This document shows positions 52,347 through 63,629 of a stretch of DNA of 64,000 bases, piece by piece; positions within the stretch are counted from its first letter, which is position 1, and each line of letters begins with the position of its first letter. The stretch lies in assembly GCF_022557175.1 (NCBI RefSeq), contig NZ_CP092915.1, positions 5,518,001 through 5,582,000 on the forward strand, read 5' to 3'. This DNA is from Mycolicibacterium sp. YH-1. Lineage in GTDB: Bacteria > Actinomycetota > Actinomycetes > Mycobacteriales > Mycobacteriaceae. The notes under the pieces were generated by a model. It was given only the letters and a program-made list of their open reading frames with translations, was not told the DNA's origin and did no database searches. The translations under genes were made by a program, and so were the position numbers.

Positions 52347-53108
52347 TTAAGTACGCAGGTAGGAAGCGCCGTTGAGGTCCAAGATCGCGCCCGATGCCCA
52401 CTCGGCGTCCGCCGATGCGAGATAGACAATGCCCGATGCGATTTCGCGTGTGGTGCCTACCCGGGCGAACGGGCTTTGCCCGCGAATCGCGGCGCCCTGC
52501 GCGCCGTCGAGCTTGACCTGCTGCCTTTCGGTGGCGACGAAACCCGGTGCGATCGCGCTTACGGCAATGTTGTGTGGTGCCAGCGCAAGCGCCAATGACT
52601 GGCTCATGGCGTGCATCGCTGCCTTGCTCGCCGCATAGGCGGGGTGGTCCGGTTCGCCGACGAACGCTCCGCGTGAGCCCACGTTGATGATGCGCCCTCC
52701 CGATCCGTGCTCGATCATGTGACGCGCCGCCGCCCACGTCACGTTCGCTGTGCCCAGCAGGTTGACGTCGACCATGCCGGTCCAGGCTGCGCACCACCGC
52801 TCGAAGTCGACCTCGGCAATCCGGTGCGCGTTCTCGACGGTTGGAGCGATGCCGGCGTTGTTGATCAGCACGTCAACTCTGCCCAGCGCGGCGATTGCGT
52901 CGGCCACGATCTGGCGCGCCTGCAGGGGATCTGCGAGGTCGCCGGCGACGACCGCGTGACCGTCACCGGGAAGTTGCGCCGCGGTGCGCTCGGCGCCTGC
53001 GCGGCTGGCCGAGTAGTGGACCGCGACGCGATCGCCCAGTTCGGCGAACGCCTGCGCCACCTCGCGTCCGATTCCGCGCGACGCTCCGGTCACCAAAACA
53101 CATCTCAT
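52347..53108 (-). CDS. SDR-family oxidoreductase
   Basis: The 253-residue SDR has VLVTGASRGIGREVAQAF, NNAGIAPTVENAH, the Ser in IINVGSRGAF and Tyr-x3-Lys in HPAYAASKAAMHA. This is the classical FabG-like type that reduces a ketone or oxidises a secondary alcohol with NAD(P). It is last in the ABC transporter-ureohydrolase operon, 15 bp after the ATPase, so it probably acts on a carbon product of the imported compound. Confidence 0.9.
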   Translation of the reverse strand: MRCVLVTGASRGIGREVAQAFAELGDRVAVHYSASRAGAERTAAQLPGDGHAVVAGDLADPLQARQIVADAIAALGRVDVLINNAGIAPTVENAHRIAEVDFERWCAAWTGMVDVNLLGTANVTWAAARHMIEHGSGGRIINVGSRGAFVGEPDHPAYAASKAAMHAMSQSLALALAPHNIAVSAIAPGFVATERQQVKLDGAQGAAIRGQSPFARVGTTREIASGIVYLASADAEWASGAILDLNGASYLRT

Positions 53109-53123
53109 ACGGAACCCCGCTTG

Positions 53124-53945
53124 CTAGAGGTCGTCGGGATGCAGCACGGCGTGCAGGAACGTCGCCGTACGGGCCTGGGTGGGTTGAGAGAAGATCTGGT
53201 CGGGCGGTCCCGATTCAATGATGACGCCCTTGTCCATGACGATGATGCGGTCGGCGACACGCTGCGCGAATCGCATTTCGTGGGTGACGATGACCATCGT
53301 CATGCCCTGCTCGGCGAGATCGCGCATCACCTTGAGGACCTCTCCGACCAGTTCGGGGTCAAGAGCCGACGTCGCCTCGTCGAACAGCATCGCCTTCGGC
53401 TGCATGGCCAACGCCCTAGCGATGGCCACCCTCTGCTGTTGGCCGCCGGACAGCTGGTGGGGGTAGTTGTCCGCCCGGTCGGCAAGACCCATCTGCGCGA
53501 GCAGCGCGCGAGCTACCGACTCGGACTCTTCCGCCGTGACCTTGTTCACCGAACGCGGCGCACACATCACGTTCCCGAGCGCCGAGAGGTGGGGGAACAG
53601 ATTGAATCGCTGGAACACCATGCCCAATTCACGACGAGCGTCGCGGATTCGTCGTCGATCCAACTTCTCGAGCTCGCCACCGCTGGCACGCTGCAAGCAG
53701 ATTCCGTCAACGACGATCTCGCCTTCGTCGATGGTCTCCAGCGCGTTGAGCGTGCGAACCAGGGTCGTCTTGCCCGAGCCGCTGGGCCCGATGATCGCCA
53801 CCACCTCACCACGGGCGATCTCCAGTGTCACGCCGCGGAGCACCTCGATGTCACCGAACCGCTTGTGCAGGTTCCGTGCCGAGATGAGCGGCGCTTCCTC
53901 GGCTTTGGTCATGACGCTCCTGATTTCATCGGATTCTGATTGCAT
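53124..53945 (-). CDS. ABC transporter ATP-binding protein, polar amino acid type
   Basis: The roughly 273-residue ATPase has Walker [13 protein letters not shown], signature [15 protein letters not shown], Walker [15 protein letters not shown] and the H-loop VTHEMRFA. It is of the GlnQ/HisP class that energises amino-acid import. ATG 53945 is chosen; ATG 53912, with AGGAG 4 bases upstream, is a good alternative. It is operonic with the permease and SDR. Confidence 0.93.
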
Positions 53946-54005
53946 CTGAGGTCTGCCCTTCCTTGGCGCCTTCTGCATGGATAGTCGATGTGTCCGCCAG
54001 GACCG

Positions 54006-54719
54006 CTAGCCGGCGCTGGCGGCCAGTGCAGGGTCGCGCGGGCGCTTACGCCGAGGCGGAACGCGAGTCGTCAGGTCGAGCCGTCGCTCTAGTCGAAGTA
54101 CCGCGCGACTCGTCGGGTAACTCAATGCGAGATAGAGCAGGCCGATAACCAAGTACACCTGCATGTATTTGAACGTCTCGGATCCGATCACCTGGCCGGT
54201 GAACAACAACTCGGACACCGAGACCGTCGACGCCAGAGCACTGTCCTTGAAGAGCGCGATCGCGTAGTTGCCCGTCGGGGGGATCGCCGAGCGGAATGCC
54301 TGAGGCAGGATCGTGTGCCGCATCATTCCGGTCCACGTCATCGCGAGTGCCTCGGATGCCTCCCATTGACCCTTGTCCACTCCCAGGATCGCGCCGCGAA
54401 AGACCTCACTGAGATAGGCACTGGTGTTGAGGCCCAAGCCCAGGATTGCGGCGACCAACGGCGACAGACGAAGCCCCGCCGACGGAAGCGCGAAGTACGC
54501 GAAGAACAGCTGAAGGATCAGCGGCGTGCCGCGCAGGATCTCGACATAGATCGTCGCCGGGACGTAGAGCAGTCGTCGACGTGGCGACAGCCGCAGCACC
54601 GCCACCACCAGGCCCAGGACGACAGCCAACACGAATGCGCCGAAGGTGATCTGCACGGTGAACACCAACCCGTGCATCATGCGGGGCAACCACTCGCTGA
54701 GTTCCTCGACTGTGGGCAT
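54006..54719 (-). CDS. ABC transporter permease, polar amino acid type
   Basis: The 237-residue HisM/GlnP-type permease has about five helices and the EAA loop EASEALAMTWTGMMRHTILPQAFRSAIPPTGN that docks to the ATPase. It is the only permease, so it should form a homodimer. ATG 54719 overlaps the ureohydrolase stop by one base (TGATG), linking hydrolysis and import translationally. Confidence 0.92.
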   Translation of the reverse strand: MPTVEELSEWLPRMMHGLVFTVQITFGAFVLAVVLGLVVAVLRLSPRRRLLYVPATIYVEILRGTPLILQLFFAYFALPSAGLRLSPLVAAILGLGLNTSAYLSEVFRGAILGVDKGQWEASEALAMTWTGMMRHTILPQAFRSAIPPTGNYAIALFKDSALASTVSVSELLFTGQVIGSETFKYMQVYLVIGLLYLALSYPTSRAVLRLERRLDLTTRVPPRRKRPRDPALAASAG

Positions 54720-55732
54720 CAGCGCGACCCGTTGACCGTCTGGCTCGCCGTGGCGGCTCGCTGCGCACCGCGGCGCTCTGCCACGTGGCCCATGAACTCG
54801 ACGATCAACTGCGTCGCGAGGAACGCCGTCGACTTGTTGGGGTTGTCCAACATCGGATTGAGTTCGACGATGTCGAGTCCACAAACATCGTAATTGTCCG
54901 CAAGCCCACACATGGCGTCTCGAAGCTCGTCATAGAGCAGCCCGGAGGGTTCGGGCGTGCCCACTCCTGGAGCCAAGGTCATGTCCAGGACGTCGACGTC
55001 GACGCTGAGGTACACAGGCAGATCCGGCTGCAGGGTGGGGAAGAGACGGTCGTTACCGCCCGCCTGAAACTGCTTGGTGGTGAGGACGAAGTTGCCGTCG
55101 CGGACGGAGTCCAGGTAGTCCTCTTGCACGGAACGGTAGCTGCGGATACCGACCTGGGTCAGGCTGCGCACGTTCGCCAGCTCCTTGACCTTCCGGATTG
55201 GGTTGCCGTGCGCGTGCTGCACCGCATGCGTGTACGGCTGGTAGTCCAGGTGTGCGTCGAAGTGCACCACCTGAAAGTCGTGGTCGAAGGCACGCGCCAC
55301 GGAGAACGTCGCCGCGTGGTCGCCGCCACCGATGATCGGTAGTGCCCCCGCCGCGATGATCTGACGCACCGTCTCGGTGCCCTTGTCCCATGTCAGATCC
55401 GGCTGGGTGTAGATGATGTCCACATCACCGCAGTCGACGATGCGATTCTGTTCCATCTCGCGCTGCAGGTACCGCTTGCCCTCGTCGATATCCCAGAAGC
55501 CGGCGGCCGCCCCGGTATTACAGGAGACGAAACGCAGCGACATCTCGCGGATGCTGCGCGGGCCGAATCGAGAACCTGGATACCACCCGGTGCCCTCATC
55601 GCTGGGGAAGCCCAGAAACGCGAAGTCGGCATCGAGATTGGCGAGGTCGGTGACGATCGGTGACCGCAAGAACACCGGAATGCCCGTGAATGCGAGGTCC
55701 AGCCGTTCCGGCGATGTGCGTGGTGAGTCCAT
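54719..55732 (-). CDS. Agmatinase/arginase-family ureohydrolase
   Basis: The 337-residue protein has the Mn-binding motifs PIIGGGDHAATFS, VHFDAHLDYQPYTHA and YLSVDVDVLDMTLAPGVGTPEPSG. It should hydrolyse a guanidino compound (agmatine, guanidinobutyrate, guanidinopropionate or similar) to an amine and urea. Unusually it sits inside an ABC importer operon, between the substrate-binding protein and the permease, so the imported solute is probably its substrate. Confidence 0.9.
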   Translation of the reverse strand: MDSPRTSPERLDLAFTGIPVFLRSPIVTDLANLDADFAFLGFPSDEGTGWYPGSRFGPRSIREMSLRFVSCNTGAAAGFWDIDEGKRYLQREMEQNRIVDCGDVDIIYTQPDLTWDKGTETVRQIIAAGALPIIGGGDHAATFSVARAFDHDFQVVHFDAHLDYQPYTHAVQHAHGNPIRKVKELANVRSLTQVGIRSYRSVQEDYLDSVRDGNFVLTTKQFQAGGNDRLFPTLQPDLPVYLSVDVDVLDMTLAPGVGTPEPSGLLYDELRDAMCGLADNYDVCGLDIVELNPMLDNPNKSTAFLATQLIVEFMGHVAERRGAQRAATASQTVNGSR

Positions 55733-55796: not shown

Positions 55797-56660
55797 TCAC
55801 TTCGGCAGGAACTGCTCAGCCGGCGTCAGACCCCACTGCTCGAGAATCTTGCCGACTGTGCCGTCCGCCAGCATCTCGTCATAGATCGGATTGAATGCCT
55901 CGGTAAATGTCTGATCGGACTTGTTGACCGCAAGCGCGTTCTGGCTCTGCGCCAATGACGGCGACACATATCCGGCCGCCAATTGCGCGCCGAGTGCCGG
56001 GTTTTGGTTCAGCGCATACGCCGCCATGGAGGCATCGATCAATGCGCCGTCGACACGGCCGGCCGCGACGTCCTGGATCACTTCGAAGATGGTGGAGTAG
56101 ACCTTCACCTCAATCGACTCCCCGTCCGGACAACGAGCGCTTGCGTTCTTGAGGTCCTCAGCCCACGTGGTGCCCTTGTAGGTCGCTCCCACGCGCCCGC
56201 ACAGATCCGCCACGGTCTCGAGCCCGTCAGGATTGCCCTTGCGCACAACCAGTCCCTCGGGATTCACGAAGATCGTGCGCGTGAAGTTGACCTGCTTGGC
56301 GCGCTCCTCGGTGGCGAAGATCGCGTCCCCAATCATGTCGATGCGATTGCTGGTGACCGACGGGATGAGGCTGTCGAACGGCATTGCCGTCGACTTCAAC
56401 GTCGCCTCTATCCCGGCCCGCTTGAGAAACTCGCGCAGGATGTCGGGCACGACGCCGGTTGCCTCACCTGAGTCCGACACCGTCGACCACGGCGCATCGT
56501 TGGACGTGCCGATCGTCAACTCCTTCCGCTCCTTGATCGTCCCCATGACGTCGTCGGGCGCTCCTCCTCCAGAACCCGACGAGCACGCCGTGGCGGCAAG
56601 TACGCCAATCACGGTCAGGCACACGGGCAGGAGACGACCTCTTCTAGGCAGTTCGAACAC
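55797..56660 (-). CDS. ABC transporter substrate-binding lipoprotein, polar amino acid type
   Basis: The 287-residue protein has a signal peptide with lipobox ATAC and an SBP_bac_3 domain (IGTSNDAPWSTVSDSGEATGVVPDILREFLKRAG ... ALIDASMAAYALNQNP). It captures the solute outside the membrane. It is the first gene of the minus-strand operon, with a 217-bp divergent control region to pxpA that contains the operator-like site at 56772. Confidence 0.92.
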   Translation of the reverse strand: MFELPRRGRLLPVCLTVIGVLAATACSSGSGGGAPDDVMGTIKERKELTIGTSNDAPWSTVSDSGEATGVVPDILREFLKRAGIEATLKSTAMPFDSLIPSVTSNRIDMIGDAIFATEERAKQVNFTRTIFVNPEGLVVRKGNPDGLETVADLCGRVGATYKGTTWAEDLKNASARCPDGESIEVKVYSTIFEVIQDVAAGRVDGALIDASMAAYALNQNPALGAQLAAGYVSPSLAQSQNALAVNKSDQTFTEAFNPIYDEMLADGTVGKILEQWGLTPAEQFLPK

Positions 56661-56771
56661 GGCGGGCTTCCTCTCTGTGGGACACGAACATCAGCCGGGA
56701 CGGTAATCACACGTCGAGCCGTGCGATTTCGTCCCGCCGCGATTGGCAGGACCCGTTACGGTGACTAGACA

Positions 56772-56805
56772 CCAGATCTTGCAGCATCGTACGATGTGAT
56801 GCAAG
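56772..56805. promoter_or_regulatory. Shared operator-like site A (candidate RpiR site)
   Basis: On the minus strand CTTGCATCACATC, then a central ACG/CGT dyad, then GCTGCAAGATCTGG. It aligns without gaps over 30 bases with site B at 61486-61520, at about three quarters identity, both containing CTTGCATCA at one end and TGCAAGATCT at the other. It lies between the divergent transporter operon and pxpA. Confidence 0.65.
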
Positions 56806-56877
56806 ACATGGCAGCGGACGAATGTGGTGCGACTCGCACGGAGTCGGCGGGCCAACAGTTGACGATCGGAGGAAATC

Positions 56878-57666
56878 ATGACGGCAACCAGGGTGATCTC
56901 GCTCAATACGGACATCGGCGAGGGATTCGGGCCGTGGCAGATCGCCGACGACTCAGCGCTTCTGCGGGTCGTCACCGACGCGAACCTGGCCTGCGGGTTC
57001 CACGCGTCTGACCCCGACATCATGCGCCGAACTTGCGATGTGGCCGCCGAGCGAGGGATCACCGTGGGAGCCCAGGTCGGCTATCACGATCTCCGCGGCT
57101 TCGGCCGCCGCTTCATAGAAGTCGATCCGACCAGCATCACCAATGACGTTCTGTACCAACTGGGTGCGCTGAGCGCCTTCGTGACTGCCGCAGGCAGCAG
57201 GATCGGCTATCTGAAGATCCACGGCGCGCTTTATCACGCCGCCGTGGCCCGCGCCGACTACGCGGACGCCGTGATTCGTGCGATCGCCCTCTACGACCTG
57301 GACCTGCCGATGATGTGCCAGCCGGGCACTTCATTGTTCGCGGCAGCCAAATCGGTGGGCCTGCGCACGATCGCCGAGGGCTACATCGACCGCGCCTACA
57401 CGGCAGAGGGCCTCCTGGTACCTCGCGACGTGGCGGGTTCGGTCGTGACCGATCGAGACGAATGTGTCAGGAGGGCACTGCAACTCGCGCTCGAGAATCG
57501 CATCGAGGCGATCGACGGGACGGTGATCGATGTGACTGCCGACTCGTTGTGCATCCACTCCGACTCCGCCGGGGCGCCGGAACTTGCGCGCGCCGTGCGC
57601 GATGCGCTGGAGGGAGCCGGGGTCGTCGTCGAAGCGCTCGGCCACCCATCCCGTGCCGGTGCCTAG
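56878..57666 (+). CDS. pxpA: 5-oxoprolinase subunit A-type protein (LamB/YcsF family)
   Basis: The 262-residue protein reads ISLNTDIGEGFGPW and CGFHASDPDIMRRTCDVAAERGITVGAQVGYHD, the LamB/YcsF signature. With PxpB and PxpC it forms an ATP-dependent lactamase that opens 5-oxoproline to glutamate in characterised bacteria. A relative acting on another lactam is possible. ATG 56878 follows GGAGGAAATC. It is first in pxpABC-pdxS. Confidence 0.92.
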   Translation: MTATRVISLNTDIGEGFGPWQIADDSALLRVVTDANLACGFHASDPDIMRRTCDVAAERGITVGAQVGYHDLRGFGRRFIEVDPTSITNDVLYQLGALSAFVTAAGSRIGYLKIHGALYHAAVARADYADAVIRAIALYDLDLPMMCQPGTSLFAAAKSVGLRTIAEGYIDRAYTAEGLLVPRDVAGSVVTDRDECVRRALQLALENRIEAIDGTVIDVTADSLCIHSDSAGAPELARAVRDALEGAGVVVEALGHPSRAGA

Positions 57667-58327
57667 CCCCCAGGTACACGGCGCCACAACCGCTTCAAGA
57701 GCTGAGCACCTTCGCGTGCGCGCCGTGGGCGACATCGGCATCCTTGTCGAAGCCGATTCCACCAACACCGTTCGATCCCTTGCGAAGTGGGTCAACGAGC
57801 ATCGGCTGCGGCCTGATCTACGGGACGTGATACCTGCGGTGACGACACTCTTCATCACAGGCGGATCATCCACCTTGCGCGCCATCCGAGCAGACCTCGA
57901 CTCGTTCGACGCATCCCAGTTCATTGCGCTTCCGCAGCCCAGCAGGCGCGTGGTCGTCGACGTACGTTACGACGGTCCAGACCTGGCCGGGGTCGCCAGC
58001 CGCGTTGGGCTCACGTGTCGTGAGGTCATCGAGATCCACACGGGCAGCGAATACGTCGTGGAGTTCTTCGGATTCGCTCCCGGACAGGCCTTCTTCGGGG
58101 GATTGCCCCCGCGCCTGCAGCTACCGCGCCGAAGCACGCCCCGCACACACGTGCCAGCCGGAGCCCTCGCCATCGCCAACGGCTTCACCGTCATTTACCC
58201 GCAGAACTCACCGGGAGGGTGGAATCTGATCGGCACGAGGGTGTCGGACCCGCTGTGGGACATCGGCCGCACTCCCCCGAACCGCCTGGACGTGGGAGAC
58301 ATCGTCCAGTTTCGCCAATGCCGGTGA
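57659..58327 (+). CDS. pxpB: 5-oxoprolinase subunit B-type protein (AHS1 domain)
   Basis: The roughly 222-residue AHS1/KipI-type protein ends in the characteristic FFGFAPGQAFFGGLPPRLQLPRRSTPRTHVPAGALAIA and GGWNLIGTR. It would carry the ATP-dependent activation step with PxpC. GTG 57659, overlapping the pxpA stop by 8 bp, is chosen (GTG 57653 possible). Its end overlaps pxpC by 10 bp. Confidence 0.87.
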   Translation: MPSPQVHGATTASRAEHLRVRAVGDIGILVEADSTNTVRSLAKWVNEHRLRPDLRDVIPAVTTLFITGGSSTLRAIRADLDSFDASQFIALPQPSRRVVVDVRYDGPDLAGVASRVGLTCREVIEIHTGSEYVVEFFGFAPGQAFFGGLPPRLQLPRRSTPRTHVPAGALAIANGFTVIYPQNSPGGWNLIGTRVSDPLWDIGRTPPNRLDVGDIVQFRQCR

Positions 58328-59199
58328 TCGAGGTTGTCCGCGCGGGGATGCAGGCGACGATCCAAGATCTTGGGCGCACCGGATTCGGTCACCTCGGCGT
58401 ACCGGAGGCGGGCGCCATGGATCCCACGAGCCTGCGCCTGGCTAATCGGCTCGTCGGCAATGACGAACACGCCGCCGCGATCGAGTTCCTCCTGGGCGGC
58501 TTCGCAATTCGGTTTCACTGCCAACGGGCATTCGCGGTCTGCGGCGCCCCGCTTGAACTACACCTCAACGACATCCCGGTGGCGTCGGGACAGTGGCAAC
58601 TCGCCAGGGCGGGCGATCTACTCGTCGCGGGACGCGCCGCGTACGGCTTGAGAAGCTATCTCGCGGTCGCTGGCGGCATTGGCGTACCCGCTGTCCTCGG
58701 CAGTCGGTCGACGGACACGCTGTCCGGCTTGGGTCCCGACCCCCTCAAACCCGGCGACCTCGTTCCCGTCGACACACCGAGCCGGTGCGCTCCGCTGGTG
58801 AACGCGGTGGACTTCACGGTGTCTAGTCCGGTCGCCGAAGTGCCGATCCGTTTCCGATGGGGACCTCGTGAGGACCGATTCACCGAAGGTGCCAGGCGGA
58901 CACTGGTCGACAGCGTCTTCACGATCAGCAGCGAGGTGGACCGAATTGCCGCTCGTCTCATCGGTCCAACACTCGAGTTCGCCATCACCGAGGACCTGGC
59001 AACGGAGGGATTGGCGCTGGGCTCCATTCAGGTTCCCCCGTCCGGCCAGCCCATCATCCACCTGGCCAATCACCCACCCACAGGCGGCTATCCAGTCGTC
59101 GGCGTAGTCGCCACCGAGGACGTCGTGCGACTCGCACAGTTGCCGCCCGGCACCCGGATACGCCTGTCACCCCTACCGTCAACGATGTCCGCCAACTAG
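58318..59199 (+). CDS. pxpC: 5-oxoprolinase subunit C-type protein (AHS2 domain)
   Basis: The 293-residue AHS2/KipA-type protein has [30 protein letters not shown] at the start and [32 protein letters not shown] near the end. It completes the PxpABC lactamase set. ATG 58318 lies inside pxpB. Confidence 0.9.
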
Positions 59200-59210
59200 G
59201 AGCCAATGCA

Positions 59211-60140
59211 ATGACACGTCCATCGCACCACCTCGCCACTCAACCGCGAGTCGACGGCACACAGACCGGCACCGCCCGCGTGAAGCGCGGTATGGCCGAG
59301 ATGCTCAAGGGTGGGGTCATCATGGACGTCGTCACCCCGGAGCAGGCTCGTATCGCCGAGGGCGCAGGTGCGGTCGCGGTCATGGCGCTCGAGCGTGTGC
59401 CCGCCGATATTCGAGCCCAGGGTGGCGTATCGCGGATGAGCGATCCGGACATGATCTCCGGCATCATCGCCGCGGTCACCATCCCTGTGATGGCCAAGGC
59501 CCGCATCGGTCACTTCGTGGAGGCGCAGATCCTGGCCAGCCTCGGCGTGGACTACGTCGACGAGTCCGAGGTGCTCACCCCGGCCGACTACGCCAACCAC
59601 ATCGACAAGTGGAAGTTCACGGTTCCCTTCGTGTGTGGCGCGACCAACCTGGGCGAGGCGCTGCGCCGCATCACCGAGGGGGCGGCGATGATCCGCTCCA
59701 AGGGTGAGGCCGGCACCGGCGACGTCTCCAACGCGACCACCCACATGCGCACGATCCTCGGCGAGATCCGCAGGCTCAGCTCCCTGTCGACCGACGAGTT
59801 GTTCGTCGCCGCAAAGGAACTGCAGGCACCGTATGACCTGGTGGTCGAGGTGGCTCGCGCCGGCAAGCTGCCCGTCACGATGTTCACCGCCGGCGGCATC
59901 GCCACCCCGGCCGATGCCGCGATGATGATGCAGCTCGGCGCCGAGGGTGTCTTCGTCGGCTCGGGCATCTTCAAGTCCGGTGACCCCGCCGCCCGCGCCG
60001 CGGCAATCGTGAAGGCCACCACCTTCTACGACGACGCCGACGTCCTGTCCAAGGTGTCGCGCGGGCTGGGTGAGGCCATGGTCGGCATCAACGTCGAGGA
60101 CATCGCCCAACCACACCGGCTCGCCGCACGCGGCTGGTGA
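59211..60140 (+). CDS. pdxS: Pyridoxal 5'-phosphate synthase PdxS, without an adjacent pdxT
   Basis: The 309-residue barrel has the PdxS signatures [47 protein letters not shown] and [20 protein letters not shown]. It assembles PLP from ribose 5-phosphate, glyceraldehyde 3-phosphate and ammonia supplied by PdxT. It is 11 bp after pxpC with an AGGAG site, so in that operon. No pdxT is present; it may be a second copy beside the usual pdxS-pdxT pair. The N-terminal extension [18 protein letters not shown] stretch is longer than usual. Confidence 0.95.
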
Positions 60141-60173
60141 GTGTGCGTACGGCGGTGGCGATCAACAGAAGTC

Positions 60174-60572
60174 TCAGCTCGGCTGGGCGTGGCCGCACAC
60201 GGCACTGATCTCGATGTCGAACCCCGGCAGATCGGACTGCACGATAGCGCGAGCCGGAAACGGTTCGACGACGAATTCCCGCCAAACGGCGTCGAATTCA
60301 AATCGCCGCTCAGGATCCCGCAGATACACAGTGACGCTCAACGCATGTGCCAGCGAGGTCCCTGCCGCAGTGGCCACCGCTTCCACATTGCGCAGCGCCT
60401 GCCGGGCCTGCTCCTCGAACGACTGGCCGCTCACGTGGACACCATCGGCGGTGCGGGGCGTCTGGCCCGCGAGCCACACCACCCCGTTGTGCCGAATCGC
60501 CTGGCTGTACGACCCCGCCGGCGGCGGTGCGTCACTGGTCCGGATCGGTTCACGCTCGGTCACGGTCGGCAC
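60174..60572 (-). CDS. RidA/YjgF/YER057c/UK114-family protein
   Basis: The 132-residue protein has PPAGSYSQAIRHNGVVWLAGQTPRT and EEQARQALRNVEAVATAAGTSLAHALSVTVYL, the RidA fold. The usual catalytic arginine region appears changed (FPARAIVQSDLPG). RidA proteins hydrolyse reactive enamines or imines released by PLP enzymes, which suits the nearby aminotransferase. Its start overlaps the RpiR end by 23 bp; GTG 60563 is an alternative. Confidence 0.88.
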   Translation of the reverse strand: MPTVTEREPIRTSDAPPPAGSYSQAIRHNGVVWLAGQTPRTADGVHVSGQSFEEQARQALRNVEAVATAAGTSLAHALSVTVYLRDPERRFEFDAVWREFVVEPFPARAIVQSDLPGFDIEISAVCGHAQPS

Positions 60573-61407
60573 TCCGCTTCTGCTGGAACTGCTCGGTCAA
60601 ACGCTCCTCGAATCCCGGTTCCGCGTCGGTACGCAGCTCGACCAGCCTCACCACGAGCGCGTTGAGCAGCGCCGTCGCCGCAACCGTGGAATTGAAGAAC
60701 GTGACGCTGTCATGACGAACCGTCAGCGTGTGGAGGTGACGGGCGATGGGCAGCGGGGCCAGGGCACTGTCGGTGACGACGACCGTCTGCGCGCCAACCT
60801 CGACCGCTCGTTCGATGGTGGCGATGGTGCGGTGGTCGTAGACCGGAAATGTGAAGGCCAGCAGTGCATCTCCGGGTGCGATCAACGCGACGTCGTCCAC
60901 GTGCGTACCACCAACACCGTCGATGAGACGGACAGAGCGGTGGATCTGGCGGATGTGAAACTCGGCGAGGAAGGCAAGCGCGAACGACGTGCGGAAGCCG
61001 CACACATGAATGCGCTGCGCCTTGATGAGCGCGTCGGCCGCGCTGGCGAGCCGCCCCAGATCGAGCGAGGCCACGGTCTGCTGCAGTGCAGACATGTCGC
61101 CGCGAAGCGAATCGGCTGCCTTACCGTCGATTTGACCATGCACGTCGGGATGCGCATCGTCCTCGCGGGACTCCCACGCTCGCCGGATGGCAGCCTGCAT
61201 ATCCGGGAAACCGCGGTAACCCATCTTGACAGCGAACCTCACCACCGTCGACTCGCTGACCTCCAGCTCCTCGGCGATCCGCAGGGCCGACAGGGTACCG
61301 GCGTTCTGCGAGCTGGTCAGGCAGTAACGCGCCACCTTCTGCTGACTCACGCTGAGCTGGTTCTTCTTTCGCCGAATTCGCTCGGGAAGCGACTCGTTGT
61401 CTGCCAT
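60550..61407 (-). CDS. MurR/RpiR-family regulator
   Basis: The 285-residue protein has an N-terminal HTH_6 domain (LSVSQQKVARYCLTSSQNAGTLSALRIAEELEVSESTVVRFAVKMGYRGFPDM) and a SIS domain (RLASAADALIKAQRIHVCGFRTSFALAFLAEF). SIS domains usually bind phosphosugars, though some relatives respond to amino-sugar or amino-acid signals. ATG 61407 follows GAAGGA. It is divergent from the racemase, and site B lies between them, so autoregulation is likely. Confidence 0.92.
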   Translation of the reverse strand: MADNESLPERIRRKKNQLSVSQQKVARYCLTSSQNAGTLSALRIAEELEVSESTVVRFAVKMGYRGFPDMQAAIRRAWESREDDAHPDVHGQIDGKAADSLRGDMSALQQTVASLDLGRLASAADALIKAQRIHVCGFRTSFALAFLAEFHIRQIHRSVRLIDGVGGTHVDDVALIAPGDALLAFTFPVYDHRTIATIERAVEVGAQTVVVTDSALAPLPIARHLHTLTVRHDSVTFFNSTVAATALLNALVVRLVELRTDAEPGFEERLTEQFQQKRSADRDRA

Positions 61408-61485
61408 CCACATCATCCTTCGTCCAGCGGTCCGACGCCGTCGCGACCGGCGCCGACCACTTCCAATAATTCAGAGCATCGCCTA

Positions 61486-61520
61486 CTTGCATCATATCAC
61501 CAGAAGATGCAAGATCTTGG
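61486..61520. promoter_or_regulatory. Shared operator-like site B (candidate RpiR site)
   Basis: CTTGCATC ... GATGCAAG is an 8-bp dyad with a 12-base centre (61486-61513), followed by ATCTTGG. It matches site A (56772-56805, reverse orientation) over 30 aligned bases. It lies 3 bp from the racemase start and 79 bp from the RpiR start. Confidence 0.7.
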
Positions 61521-61523
61521 ATC

Positions 61524-62354
61524 ATGAATGACGTTCGACGCGCTCACGCTCGCGTCCCGATCGTAGGAGTGTTCGACGCGGGGATGGGCGGTTTACCCCT
61601 CGCGGCGGCCATCAGACGTAAACGAGCAGACGTCGGGATCGTGTACCTCGCTGACTCGGCACGCCGCCCGTACGGACCGCAACCACAGCACGCGATCAAG
61701 AACTACATGGCCGAGGTTGCCGCCTTCTTCGAGGACACCGACTGCGACGCGTGGGTTGTCGCGTGCAACACCGCCAGCGTCGCTGTGCGCGACCTTCCCG
61801 CGGGCCGCACCGCTCGCATCGACATGGTTCAGGCTGTCCAACGCGCCGCCGCGGACGTTGGTGACGCACGAATCGGCCTGCTCGCCACGGCGAGCACCGT
61901 CGCGAGTGGGGTCATGGTCGAGGCTCTGCCCAACCACGACGTCGTGCAGATAGCCACCGAGCAGCTGCTGCGCCTTGCTGAGGTCGGCTCATCCGATCAC
62001 GACGTGATCCGTCGCCTCACCGTTGACGCGATCGCGCAGTTGCACGAATCCGATTGCCAAACCGCGATTCTCGCCTGCACTGACTTCACGGCGGTCCTTC
62101 CGGTCATGAGAGAGGTCGCGGGAACGGTGACGCTCATCGATCCCCTCGAGGCGGCCGTGGAGCTGACCTTGAAGACCATCCCCGAACCAACATCGATGCC
62201 GCTCAACGGCGACCGCGGAGCTGCCGACCGGCTCCTGTTGACCGGACCACACCCCGTCGACGTCCGCCAGCACGCGCTCACCGCGCTCGGACTCGAGCTG
62301 CCCCACCCACAGATCGTCACCCTGCCCACGCCAACAACAGGAGGAACTACGTGA
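61524..62354 (+). CDS. Asp/Glu racemase-superfamily protein, MurI-like
   Basis: The 276-residue protein resembles glutamate racemase: GVFDAGMGGLPLA replaces DSGxGG, then YLADSARRPYGPQ, ACNTASVAV with the first cysteine and ILACTDFTAVLP with the second. In MurI the second cysteine is followed by Thr-His; here it is Thr-Asp. A changed substrate or mechanism is likely. Context argues for catabolism, not peptidoglycan synthesis. It overlaps the aminotransferase by 4 bp. Confidence 0.82.
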   Translation: MNDVRRAHARVPIVGVFDAGMGGLPLAAAIRRKRADVGIVYLADSARRPYGPQPQHAIKNYMAEVAAFFEDTDCDAWVVACNTASVAVRDLPAGRTARIDMVQAVQRAAADVGDARIGLLATASTVASGVMVEALPNHDVVQIATEQLLRLAEVGSSDHDVIRRLTVDAIAQLHESDCQTAILACTDFTAVLPVMREVAGTVTLIDPLEAAVELTLKTIPEPTSMPLNGDRGAADRLLLTGPHPVDVRQHALTALGLELPHPQIVTLPTPTTGGTT

Positions 62355-63571
62355 CCACACCGCATTTCGAACCCGCGAGCCGGATTCAACGGCTTCAACT
62401 CCCCGAACGCGCACAGACACACGGTCGGGCCCTTCGCGAGTTGGAGCGCGAACTGGAGGCGACACCGGCCGGTGAGCCGTTCCTCGACATCACCTATGCG
62501 GACACCCATCGGTTCCCCCCGCCGGACTGGGCGCTGCAGGCGTTTTCGGCGGCCGCGTCGGGCGAGGGTATGACCTACACGCCGTATCGCGGCGATCCGG
62601 GTGTCCTTGCCCAGGTCGCCGAGAATGTCACCCAGCTGCTGGGGACACCCGTCGACCCGAGCCGCGAGCTCATGGTCACTCCCGGCACACAGGCAGGCCT
62701 CTACACCGCGATGGCGGCCTTGATCGAGCCCGGCGACCGCGTTGTCGTGCCGGACCCCGACTACCTGACCAGCGCACGCTCGGTTCGCTACTTCGGTGGT
62801 GAGGTGGATTCGGTGCCGCTGCTCTGGGAGGGTGACGAACCTCATCTCGATCTCGAAGCGCTGAGGAACGCGCTGGCCAAGAACCCGAAACTGGTGATGT
62901 TCTCCCACCCGAACAACCCGACAGGTGCGGTGTTCAGCAAGGCTCACATCGCCGAGATCGCAGCGCTGCTGCGCGACTCCAGCGCCTTTGCCATCGTCGA
63001 TGAGCTCTATTGCCGCCTGGTGTACGACGGCCGCGAGTTCGCACACCTCGCCGCCGAACCCGGGATGCGGGATCGCGTCATAACCACACTGGGTCCGAGC
63101 AAGACCGAGAGCCTCAGCGGGTACCGCATCGGCGCCACCGTCGGCCCCGCCGACATCCTCACCAGCATGGAAGATGTCATGGGAATTGCCGCGTTGCGAT
63201 GCCCGGCGTATGCCCAGCATCTGTTGCCGCGCTGGATCCGCGACGACGGGCCCTACGTCGCGCAGCGGATCACCGAGTACCAATCACTACGAGACACCAC
63301 CACCTCGACGCTTAACGCACTACCCGGCGTCTCAGTGGAGCCATGTGGGGGCTCTGCGTACCTGTTCGTCAATACGTCCGGCATCGCCGCATCCGACCAG
63401 GACATCGCCCTGGCGCTCAAGTCTCGTGCCGGCCTGGTGGTCAACCCCGGATACCAATTCGGCGCGTTGGGCGCGCACCACTTCCGAATCTGTGTGGCGC
63501 AGGACGAGACCGCATGGAAGGACGCGCTCGAGAGGATGGCGTCAGTCCTCTCGGAGTTCCCCCTCCGCTGA
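62351..63571 (+). CDS. PLP-dependent aminotransferase, class I/II
   Basis: The 406-residue protein has TPGTQAGLYTAMAALIEPGDRV, SHPNNPTGAVFS, IVDELYCRLVYDG and the PLP lysine in TLGPSKTESLSGYRIG. Fold type I transaminases of this kind act on aromatic, aspartate-like or branched amino acids. The coupling to the racemase (ATGA-type overlap) suggests it uses the product of that enzyme. PdxS nearby could supply its cofactor. Confidence 0.9.
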   Translation: MTTPHFEPASRIQRLQLPERAQTHGRALRELERELEATPAGEPFLDITYADTHRFPPPDWALQAFSAAASGEGMTYTPYRGDPGVLAQVAENVTQLLGTPVDPSRELMVTPGTQAGLYTAMAALIEPGDRVVVPDPDYLTSARSVRYFGGEVDSVPLLWEGDEPHLDLEALRNALAKNPKLVMFSHPNNPTGAVFSKAHIAEIAALLRDSSAFAIVDELYCRLVYDGREFAHLAAEPGMRDRVITTLGPSKTESLSGYRIGATVGPADILTSMEDVMGIAALRCPAYAQHLLPRWIRDDGPYVAQRITEYQSLRDTTTSTLNALPGVSVEPCGGSAYLFVNTSGIAASDQDIALALKSRAGLVVNPGYQFGALGAHHFRICVAQDETAWKDALERMASVLSEFPLR

Positions 63572-63580
63572 CCCCGTCCA

Positions 63581-63629
63581 CGGTGTGAGTGGGCATGCCT
63601 GTCTGAGGCAGGCATGCCCACTCACACCG
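63581..63629. terminator. Perfect 21-bp hairpin after the aminotransferase gene
   Basis: Arms 63581-63601 and 63609-63629 are perfect reverse complements around a 7-base loop, starting 10 bp after the aminotransferase stop. No U-tract follows. It lies only 22 bp before the next same-strand gene, so it would terminate or attenuate between them. Confidence 0.7.

Follow-up and report, generated by a model that had tools for sequence, protein, structure and literature searches.

Two short, related DNA elements in a 64,000-nucleotide stretch of the Mycolicibacterium sp. YH-1 genome (contig NZ_CP092915.1, positions 5,518,001 to 5,582,000; hereafter the window) are most probably operators of an RpiR-family regulator encoded between them. 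The two elements lie in divergent promoter regions, which the bound regulator would block. As judged from sequence comparison, one protein would act through two operators on four transcription units: an importer/ureohydrolase/short-chain dehydrogenase (SDR) operon, pxpABC(-pdxS), a racemase-aminotransferase pair, and rpiR-ridA, the last by autoregulation. The two elements and the regulator are:

56778..56805, plus strand: putative operator 1, CTTGCAGC-N12-GATGCAAG, between the solute-binding protein/ureohydrolase/ATP-binding cassette (ABC) operon (minus strand) and pxpABC-pdxS (plus strand); the GATGCAAG arm lies toward pxpA
61486..61513, minus strand: putative operator 2, CTTGCATC-N12-GATGCAAG, between rpiR-ridA (minus strand) and racemase-aminotransferase (plus strand)
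60550..61416, minus strand: RpiR-family regulator with HTH_6 and SIS domains (PF01418, 3.6e-16; PF01380, 2.1e-13); its nearest folds are RpiR-family structures; proposed binder and autoregulator

Two related dyads in divergent promoters

A repeat search of the window found the elements as an inverted-repeat pair, 56774-56805 on the minus strand against 61486-61517 on the plus strand. The pair is 32 nt long, 25 of the 32 positions (78%) are complementary, and the match did not extend further. The first-pass annotation had placed both elements at these positions, which reading the sequence bears out, and had described a gapless alignment of 30 bases; the match is indeed gapless over 32 bases, but the identity is only 78%. 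The copies share CTTGCATCA and, at the opposite end, TGCAAGATCT, and the differences fall in the middle. Each copy is also a 28-bp dyad in itself, with 8-bp arms and a 12-bp spacer; the first copy has a single mismatch between its arms. This dyad nature was absent from the earlier annotation. In operator 2, the TATGATGCAAG arm directed toward rpiR on the minus strand contains a -10-like TATGAT hexamer.

We compared the match with 2000 dinucleotide shuffles of both intergenic regions (217 and 107 bp). The 25/32 match was the best ungapped 32-nt match between the two regions; the shuffle maximum was 23, and none of the 2000 reached 25. Across the 7,267,399-base genome, the pattern TTGCATC-N12-GATGCAA with up to three mismatches occurred at 120 places, compared with 71 for the reversed-pattern control. 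There was a single place with no mismatch and a single one with one mismatch in the 7.27 Mb, and these are exactly the two sites; 11 places had two mismatches. The pattern CTTGC-N18-GCAAG occurred at 5 places, both sites among them (reversed control, 32). The patterns were derived from the sites themselves, and these counts measure rarity, not an independent prediction.

The shared sequence could also reflect similar promoters of one sigma factor with an incidental dyad, or a repeat element or terminator. TTGCAT-17-CAAGAT can be read by eye in both copies, and the element is repeated and has dyad symmetry. We consider this very improbable: a sigma promoter or a repeat would recur throughout the genome, whereas at 0-1 mismatch the dyad is confined to these two places, and from genome to genome the two arms stay complementary around a freely varying spacer. 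A terminator or repeat element was rejected, with no terminator-like site at either element and no other place in the genome within one mismatch of the pattern.

Distribution of the dyads and the RpiR clade

Close relatives of the window RpiR are rare. A match at E ≤0.001 was seen in 41 of 148 related genomes, and the best one outside its own genome reached 86 bits and 30% identity. At E ≤1e-25, 3 of 396 genomes in a genus sample contained RpiR (its own, G775 with 86% identity and G751 with 32%), as did 1 of 396 in a phylum sample, its own. A contig scan, which reaches close relatives only, returned three loci: one in Mycolicibacterium sediminis, which coincides with that of G775, and a pair in Phytohabitans suffuscus. 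The M. sediminis RpiR is 85-86% identical, and the same cluster is present without a pdxS match. Dyads stand at both orthologous promoters; one fits the window pattern exactly and the other differs from it at one position.

In the Phytohabitans family, 3 of 300 genomes searched carried RpiR at E ≤1e-45, namely P. suffuscus, G990 and G999. In the latter two the cluster is present with identities of 41-71% (RpiR 56%), again without a pdxS match. Each has three dyads, one at the rpiR/racemase promoter and two at the promoter between pxpA and the solute-binding protein gene. RpiR was present in 4 of 358 genomes of an order sample: its own, G1386, and two whose contig positions coincide with those of G990 and G999. 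G1386 has a minimal cluster in which aminotransferase-racemase faces pxpABC-rpiR across a single divergent promoter with two dyads, one exact and one with one mismatch; the importer, ureohydrolase and ridA were unmatched within 20 kb around this locus. The first-pass annotation had named missing conservation in related genomes as a reason to give up its proposal, and what we found is the opposite: the sites are kept at both promoters in three other whole-cluster genomes and at the one divergent promoter of G1386.

Two other loci were set aside. The G751 locus (32% RpiR) lacks other cluster genes within 18 kb, and the sole dyad there has one mismatch and lies about 5 kb from rpiR. G725 has a 45% identical ureohydrolase beside a lyase gene, and its two one-mismatch dyads are without the TGAYGCAAG arm.

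The two RpiR paralogues of P. suffuscus share 46-47% identity with the window RpiR and have other neighbours. The first stands among genes for a flavin adenine dinucleotide (FAD) enzyme, a mandelate-racemase-like enzyme, a thiamine pyrophosphate (TPP) enzyme and an SDR, the second among genes for an NMT1 importer, an SDR, PrpF and hydantoinases A and B. These neighbours match the window cluster at the superfamily level only (ABC ATPase, SDR and aminotransferase, 29-37%). In the 10.1-Mb genome, CTTGC-N19-GCAAG has three exact places, none of them more than 4 kb from the first paralogue. By our reading they are intergenic and lie upstream of the FAD gene, rpiR itself and the TPP-enzyme operon. 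Since the Phytohabitans dyads surround an RpiR paralogue among different genes, the sites go with this RpiR clade rather than with the cluster enzymes. At the same locus, a one-mismatch dyad, CTTGCACC...GATGATGCCAG, was seen at L055 5638-5665 near a minus-strand ABC-transporter gene and is possibly a fourth operator. At L054 4971-9962, the second paralogue comes after PrpF, hydantoinase B and hydantoinase A, again a lactam/hydantoin-type set.

The counts by locus point the same way. Across five genomes, 9 of the 20 places of CTTGC-N18/19-GCAAG fell within RpiR loci; the reversed control gave 37-44 places per genome. With up to one mismatch, 12 dyads (9 exact) were counted in 1,661 intergenic bases of RpiR loci and 15 (0 exact) in 302,285 other bases; this count covered 37 loci, with G999 and L054 left out, and used a pattern and manually drawn bounds that were both fixed once the sites were known. 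Two of the 15 outside dyads, L055 5638 and 18988, are probable Phytohabitans sites. In a control set of 29 loci around RpiR homologues with ≤32% identity, 108,900 bases in all, 2 dyads were counted, each with one mismatch. The helix-turn-helix (HTH) segment VSESTVVRFA is identical in all six aligned clade members and in G1386; distant RpiR homologues have VSPPTVLRFA, VSQPSVTRFA and similar sequences. Site conservation and the P. suffuscus locus thus support, at the level of sequence, the earlier suggestion that one RpiR regulator serves all four units.

Binding by RpiR is a prediction from these comparisons, and the dyads could instead be operators of another regulator encoded elsewhere, for example of the GntR/FCD or IclR type, with RpiR merely a target or bystander. 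Corynebacterium glutamicum pxpTABC is reported to be under the GntR-type PxpR (PMC13274462), and elsewhere in the genome of the window a similar sequence, TTGCATCAATGATCTGATTATTGCAA, with two mismatches adjoins a GntR/FCD gene. The PxpR site given in that account, agattgttcaacaatct, is a different 17-bp palindrome. We regard a foreign regulator as unlikely: the exact Phytohabitans dyads cluster at an RpiR paralogue whose neighbours match only at the superfamily level, and the loci of distant RpiR homologues are nearly free of dyads. The TTGCATCAATGATCTGATTATTGCAA place (G000:C1:3667660-3667685; L006; L052 7661), the one examined among the 11 two-mismatch places, was rejected as a third regulon member since it sits between a GntP-permease/SKI-kinase gene pair and the GntR/FCD gene. 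It is probably an operator of the adjoining GntR protein.

Proposed mode of action and the regulator protein

An RpiR dimer (or tetramer) would set its HTH domains on both CTTGCA half-sites of the 28-bp dyad, and the bound protein would repress by occluding the divergent promoters on either side. A pathway metabolite held in the SIS domain would modulate it. We favour repression by occlusion because of the operator positions; in all four genomes examined, the distance between operator and racemase ATG is exactly 10 nt. Leaderless mRNA is common in mycobacteria. If the racemase mRNA is leaderless, the operator would span roughly -38 to -11, a position that suits a repressor. At operator 1, the only sigma-70-like match (56766-56795, toward pxpA) overlaps the operator. 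The TATGAT hexamer is found in the right arm of three of the four mycobacterial sites.

We aligned 17 sites and obtained the rough consensus GAT-CYTGCRNCA-N-TGAYGCAAG. The orientation was chosen by us, the L055 5638 row was added by eye, and the rows are not independent (the G999 sites nearly duplicate those of G990). At positions outside the selection pattern, TG at the inner edge of the right (GATGCAAG-type) arm is present in 17/17 sites and C at left position 8 in 15/17. In four Phytohabitans sites a further GAYGCA stands four bases upstream of the left arm (L055 6978-7047, 9856-9952 and 10859-10941; L054 520-571), and the two mycobacterial rpiR sites have GATCCA there. This extra element may be a third half-site, and in Phytohabitans it may indicate two dimers or a tetramer per site.

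The regulator could also bind the dyads as an activator or a dual regulator and not as a simple repressor. Streptococcus pneumoniae NanR is reported to be an activator, the same source stating that the other RpiR regulators are repressors (PMC12713135). A review describes family members acting both ways, repressors and activators (PMC5902321), and Lactococcus GlaR is called an activator in the title of its paper (PMC6528599). Pseudomonas RccR is reported to respond differently at 28-bp and 15-bp sites (PMC5489143), and the extra upstream GAYGCA of the Phytohabitans sites may seat a second dimer. An operator lying over the inferred racemase promoter core, 10 nt from the ATG, and a TATGAT hexamer inside the arm facing rpiR suit occlusion better, and we consider activation quite unlikely.

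Several observations weigh against RpiR-operator repression as proposed here. With more than one RpiR-family activator on record, the sign of regulation is uncertain; no sigma-70-like match was found at operator 2, and the start sites are inferred. Dyad symmetry taken alone is weak evidence: for the 107-bp region, 5 of 300 shuffled sequences contained a perfect 8+8 dyad, and the best dyad score of the 217-bp region, 7/8, was reached or passed in 208 of 300 shuffles and is not beyond chance. Dyad spacing differs by 1 bp between and within genomes (28 or 29 bp, even inside one intergenic region). In G990 and G999, one dyad per genome is exact (29 bp) and the other two of three have one half-site mismatch. 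The number of exact 29-bp dyads in P. suffuscus (3) is not above the reversed control (4), and their location alone stands out. Its second paralogue has just a one-mismatch dyad, before its importer gene.

The regulator itself is an ordinary MurR/RpiR-family protein, as far as its domains and modelled fold indicate. The N-terminal HTH_6 domain (RpiR-type, PF01418) scored 59.4 bits (cut-off 28.3) and the C-terminal SIS domain (PF01380) 50.6 bits (cut-off 25); both passed. The structure model, built from a 4-row alignment, is of moderate quality (predicted local distance difference test score, pLDDT, 77.8; predicted template modelling score, pTM, 0.58), and its best 24 Foldseek matches are chains of NanR, RccR, MurR or 3sho. 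The usual phosphate loop is not present: this clade has FPxYDxR in the SIS segment where Vibrio vulnificus NanR (4ivn) has SSSGST. Given this replacement, this RpiR probably answers to an amino acid, a lactam or a guanidino compound rather than to a sugar phosphate, and a non-sugar effector is plausible. The change is wider than the clade. An xRY variant occurs in 23 of 24 homologues and the SHSG form in one, the 24 being those judged correctly framed by eye (L021, L023, L033, L036 and L047 were left out of 29). The xRY variant marks a wider RpiR group that may lack sugar-phosphate sensing.

A literature search of titles and abstract openings, with most subscription journals outside its coverage, found no description of this operator or regulon among the papers listed; the regulon appears to be new and the regulator family is known. 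RpiR proteins are typically tied to sugar catabolism (PMC5902321). RccR is reported to use a 28-bp pseudo-palindrome with 6-bp arms, a 29-bp variant with an extra linker base, and 15-bp sites; 2-keto-3-deoxy-6-phosphogluconate (KDPG) strengthens binding to the 28-bp form and weakens binding to the 15-bp form (PMC5489143). It resembles the window regulator in family, in a site at its own gene and in spans of 28/29 bp with 6-bp arms, as in the CTTGCA sites of this clade, and its structures 8ju9 and 8k3b rank second and third in Foldseek for our model. It differs in its TGTAGT/ACTACA half-sites, in the additional 15-bp sites and in answering to KDPG in central carbon metabolism, whereas the genes here are of lactam/amino-acid type (PMC5489143). 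Pseudomonas HexR, of the same family, is described with the shorter operator TTGT-N7/8-ACAA and also with KDPG as its sugar-phosphate effector (PMC5489143, PMC5902321). NanR (V. vulnificus and S. pneumoniae) and MurR share the HTH plus SIS architecture and are among the top solved-structure relatives, but are reported to have amino-sugar phosphate ligands and a conserved phosphate loop; S. pneumoniae NanR also differs in activating from an 18-bp near-palindrome (PMC12713135). PxpR of C. glutamicum is the nearest described control of pxpABC. As proposed for the window, pxpABC is controlled there from a divergent promoter in an actinobacterium, with one divergent gene leaderless; unlike our regulator, PxpR is a GntR-type sensor of 5-oxoproline with a 17-bp palindrome, and pxpTABC as described there comes without racemase, aminotransferase or ureohydrolase (PMC13274462).

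Gene neighbourhood and possible pathway

The genes around the two promoter regions are:

52347..53108, minus strand: SDR (PF00106); closes the importer operon
53124..53978, minus strand: ABC ATP-binding protein, amino-acid type (PF00005)
54006..54911, minus strand: ABC permease open reading frame (ORF) (PF00528); true start probably near 54719 (by eye)
54719..55732, minus strand: ureohydrolase, arginase/agmatinase family (PF00491); nearest solved structures 1wog and 1gq6
55797..56660, minus strand: solute-binding protein, family 3 (PF00497)
56878..57666, plus strand: pxpA, 5-oxoprolinase subunit A (NF003814, 311.7 bits; cut-off 226)
57584..58327, plus strand: pxpB-like ORF (PF02682; TIGR00370 at 123.1 bits, under its cut-off of 145.55); true start probably internal
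58219..59199, plus strand: pxpC-like ORF (PF02626); true start probably near 58315 (by eye)
59211..60140, plus strand: pdxS, pyridoxal 5'-phosphate (PLP) synthase subunit (NF003215, 515.2 bits; cut-off 395); begins 11 nt past pxpC
60174..60572, minus strand: RidA-family protein (PF01042); overlaps the 3' end of rpiR
61524..62354, plus strand: Asp/Glu/hydantoin racemase family (PF01177); ATG 10 nt from operator 2
62351..63571, plus strand: class I/II aminotransferase (PF00155); best solved relative 3nra

This gene order makes likely the layout proposed in the first-pass annotation, with four transcription units around two divergent promoter regions. The placing of pdxS in the regulon is taken from its position, and the gene stands in the pxpABC unit only in the genome of the window, where it is one of four pdxS genes. 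No pdxS match was found in the cluster loci of M. sediminis, G990, G999 and G1386, queried with it among 17 window proteins. The gene may have been inserted later, as a source of cofactor for the PLP-dependent aminotransferase. The SDR gene is the last of the importer operon in the window and in M. sediminis, and is located elsewhere in G990 and G999.

The nearest structures of the ureohydrolase are agmatinase, proclavaminate amidinohydrolase and guanidinobutyrase, and those of the racemase are glutamate racemases. No single pathway substrate follows from comparing the structure relatives of the ureohydrolase, racemase and aminotransferase. We give about even odds to a broader reading. In it, an actinobacterial RpiR clade would have turned its sugar-phosphate pocket into a sensor of an amino acid, lactam or guanidino compound and would act through a conserved CTTGCA-N16/17-TGCAAG operator on a catabolic pathway not yet described, made up of an importer, a ureohydrolase, a 5-oxoprolinase-like enzyme, a racemase, an aminotransferase and RidA. 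If true, an RpiR clade over lactam and guanidino-type genes would widen the known ligands of the family. The cross-genome comparison ties an uncharacterised regulator to its putative operator, provides an exact DNA target for gel shifts and marks out the limits of a rare cluster of the amino-acid/lactam breakdown type.

Directly past the aminotransferase gene, at 63581-63629, we observed a 24-bp inverted repeat with 96% complementary arms and 1 nt between them, which is probably a transcription terminator.

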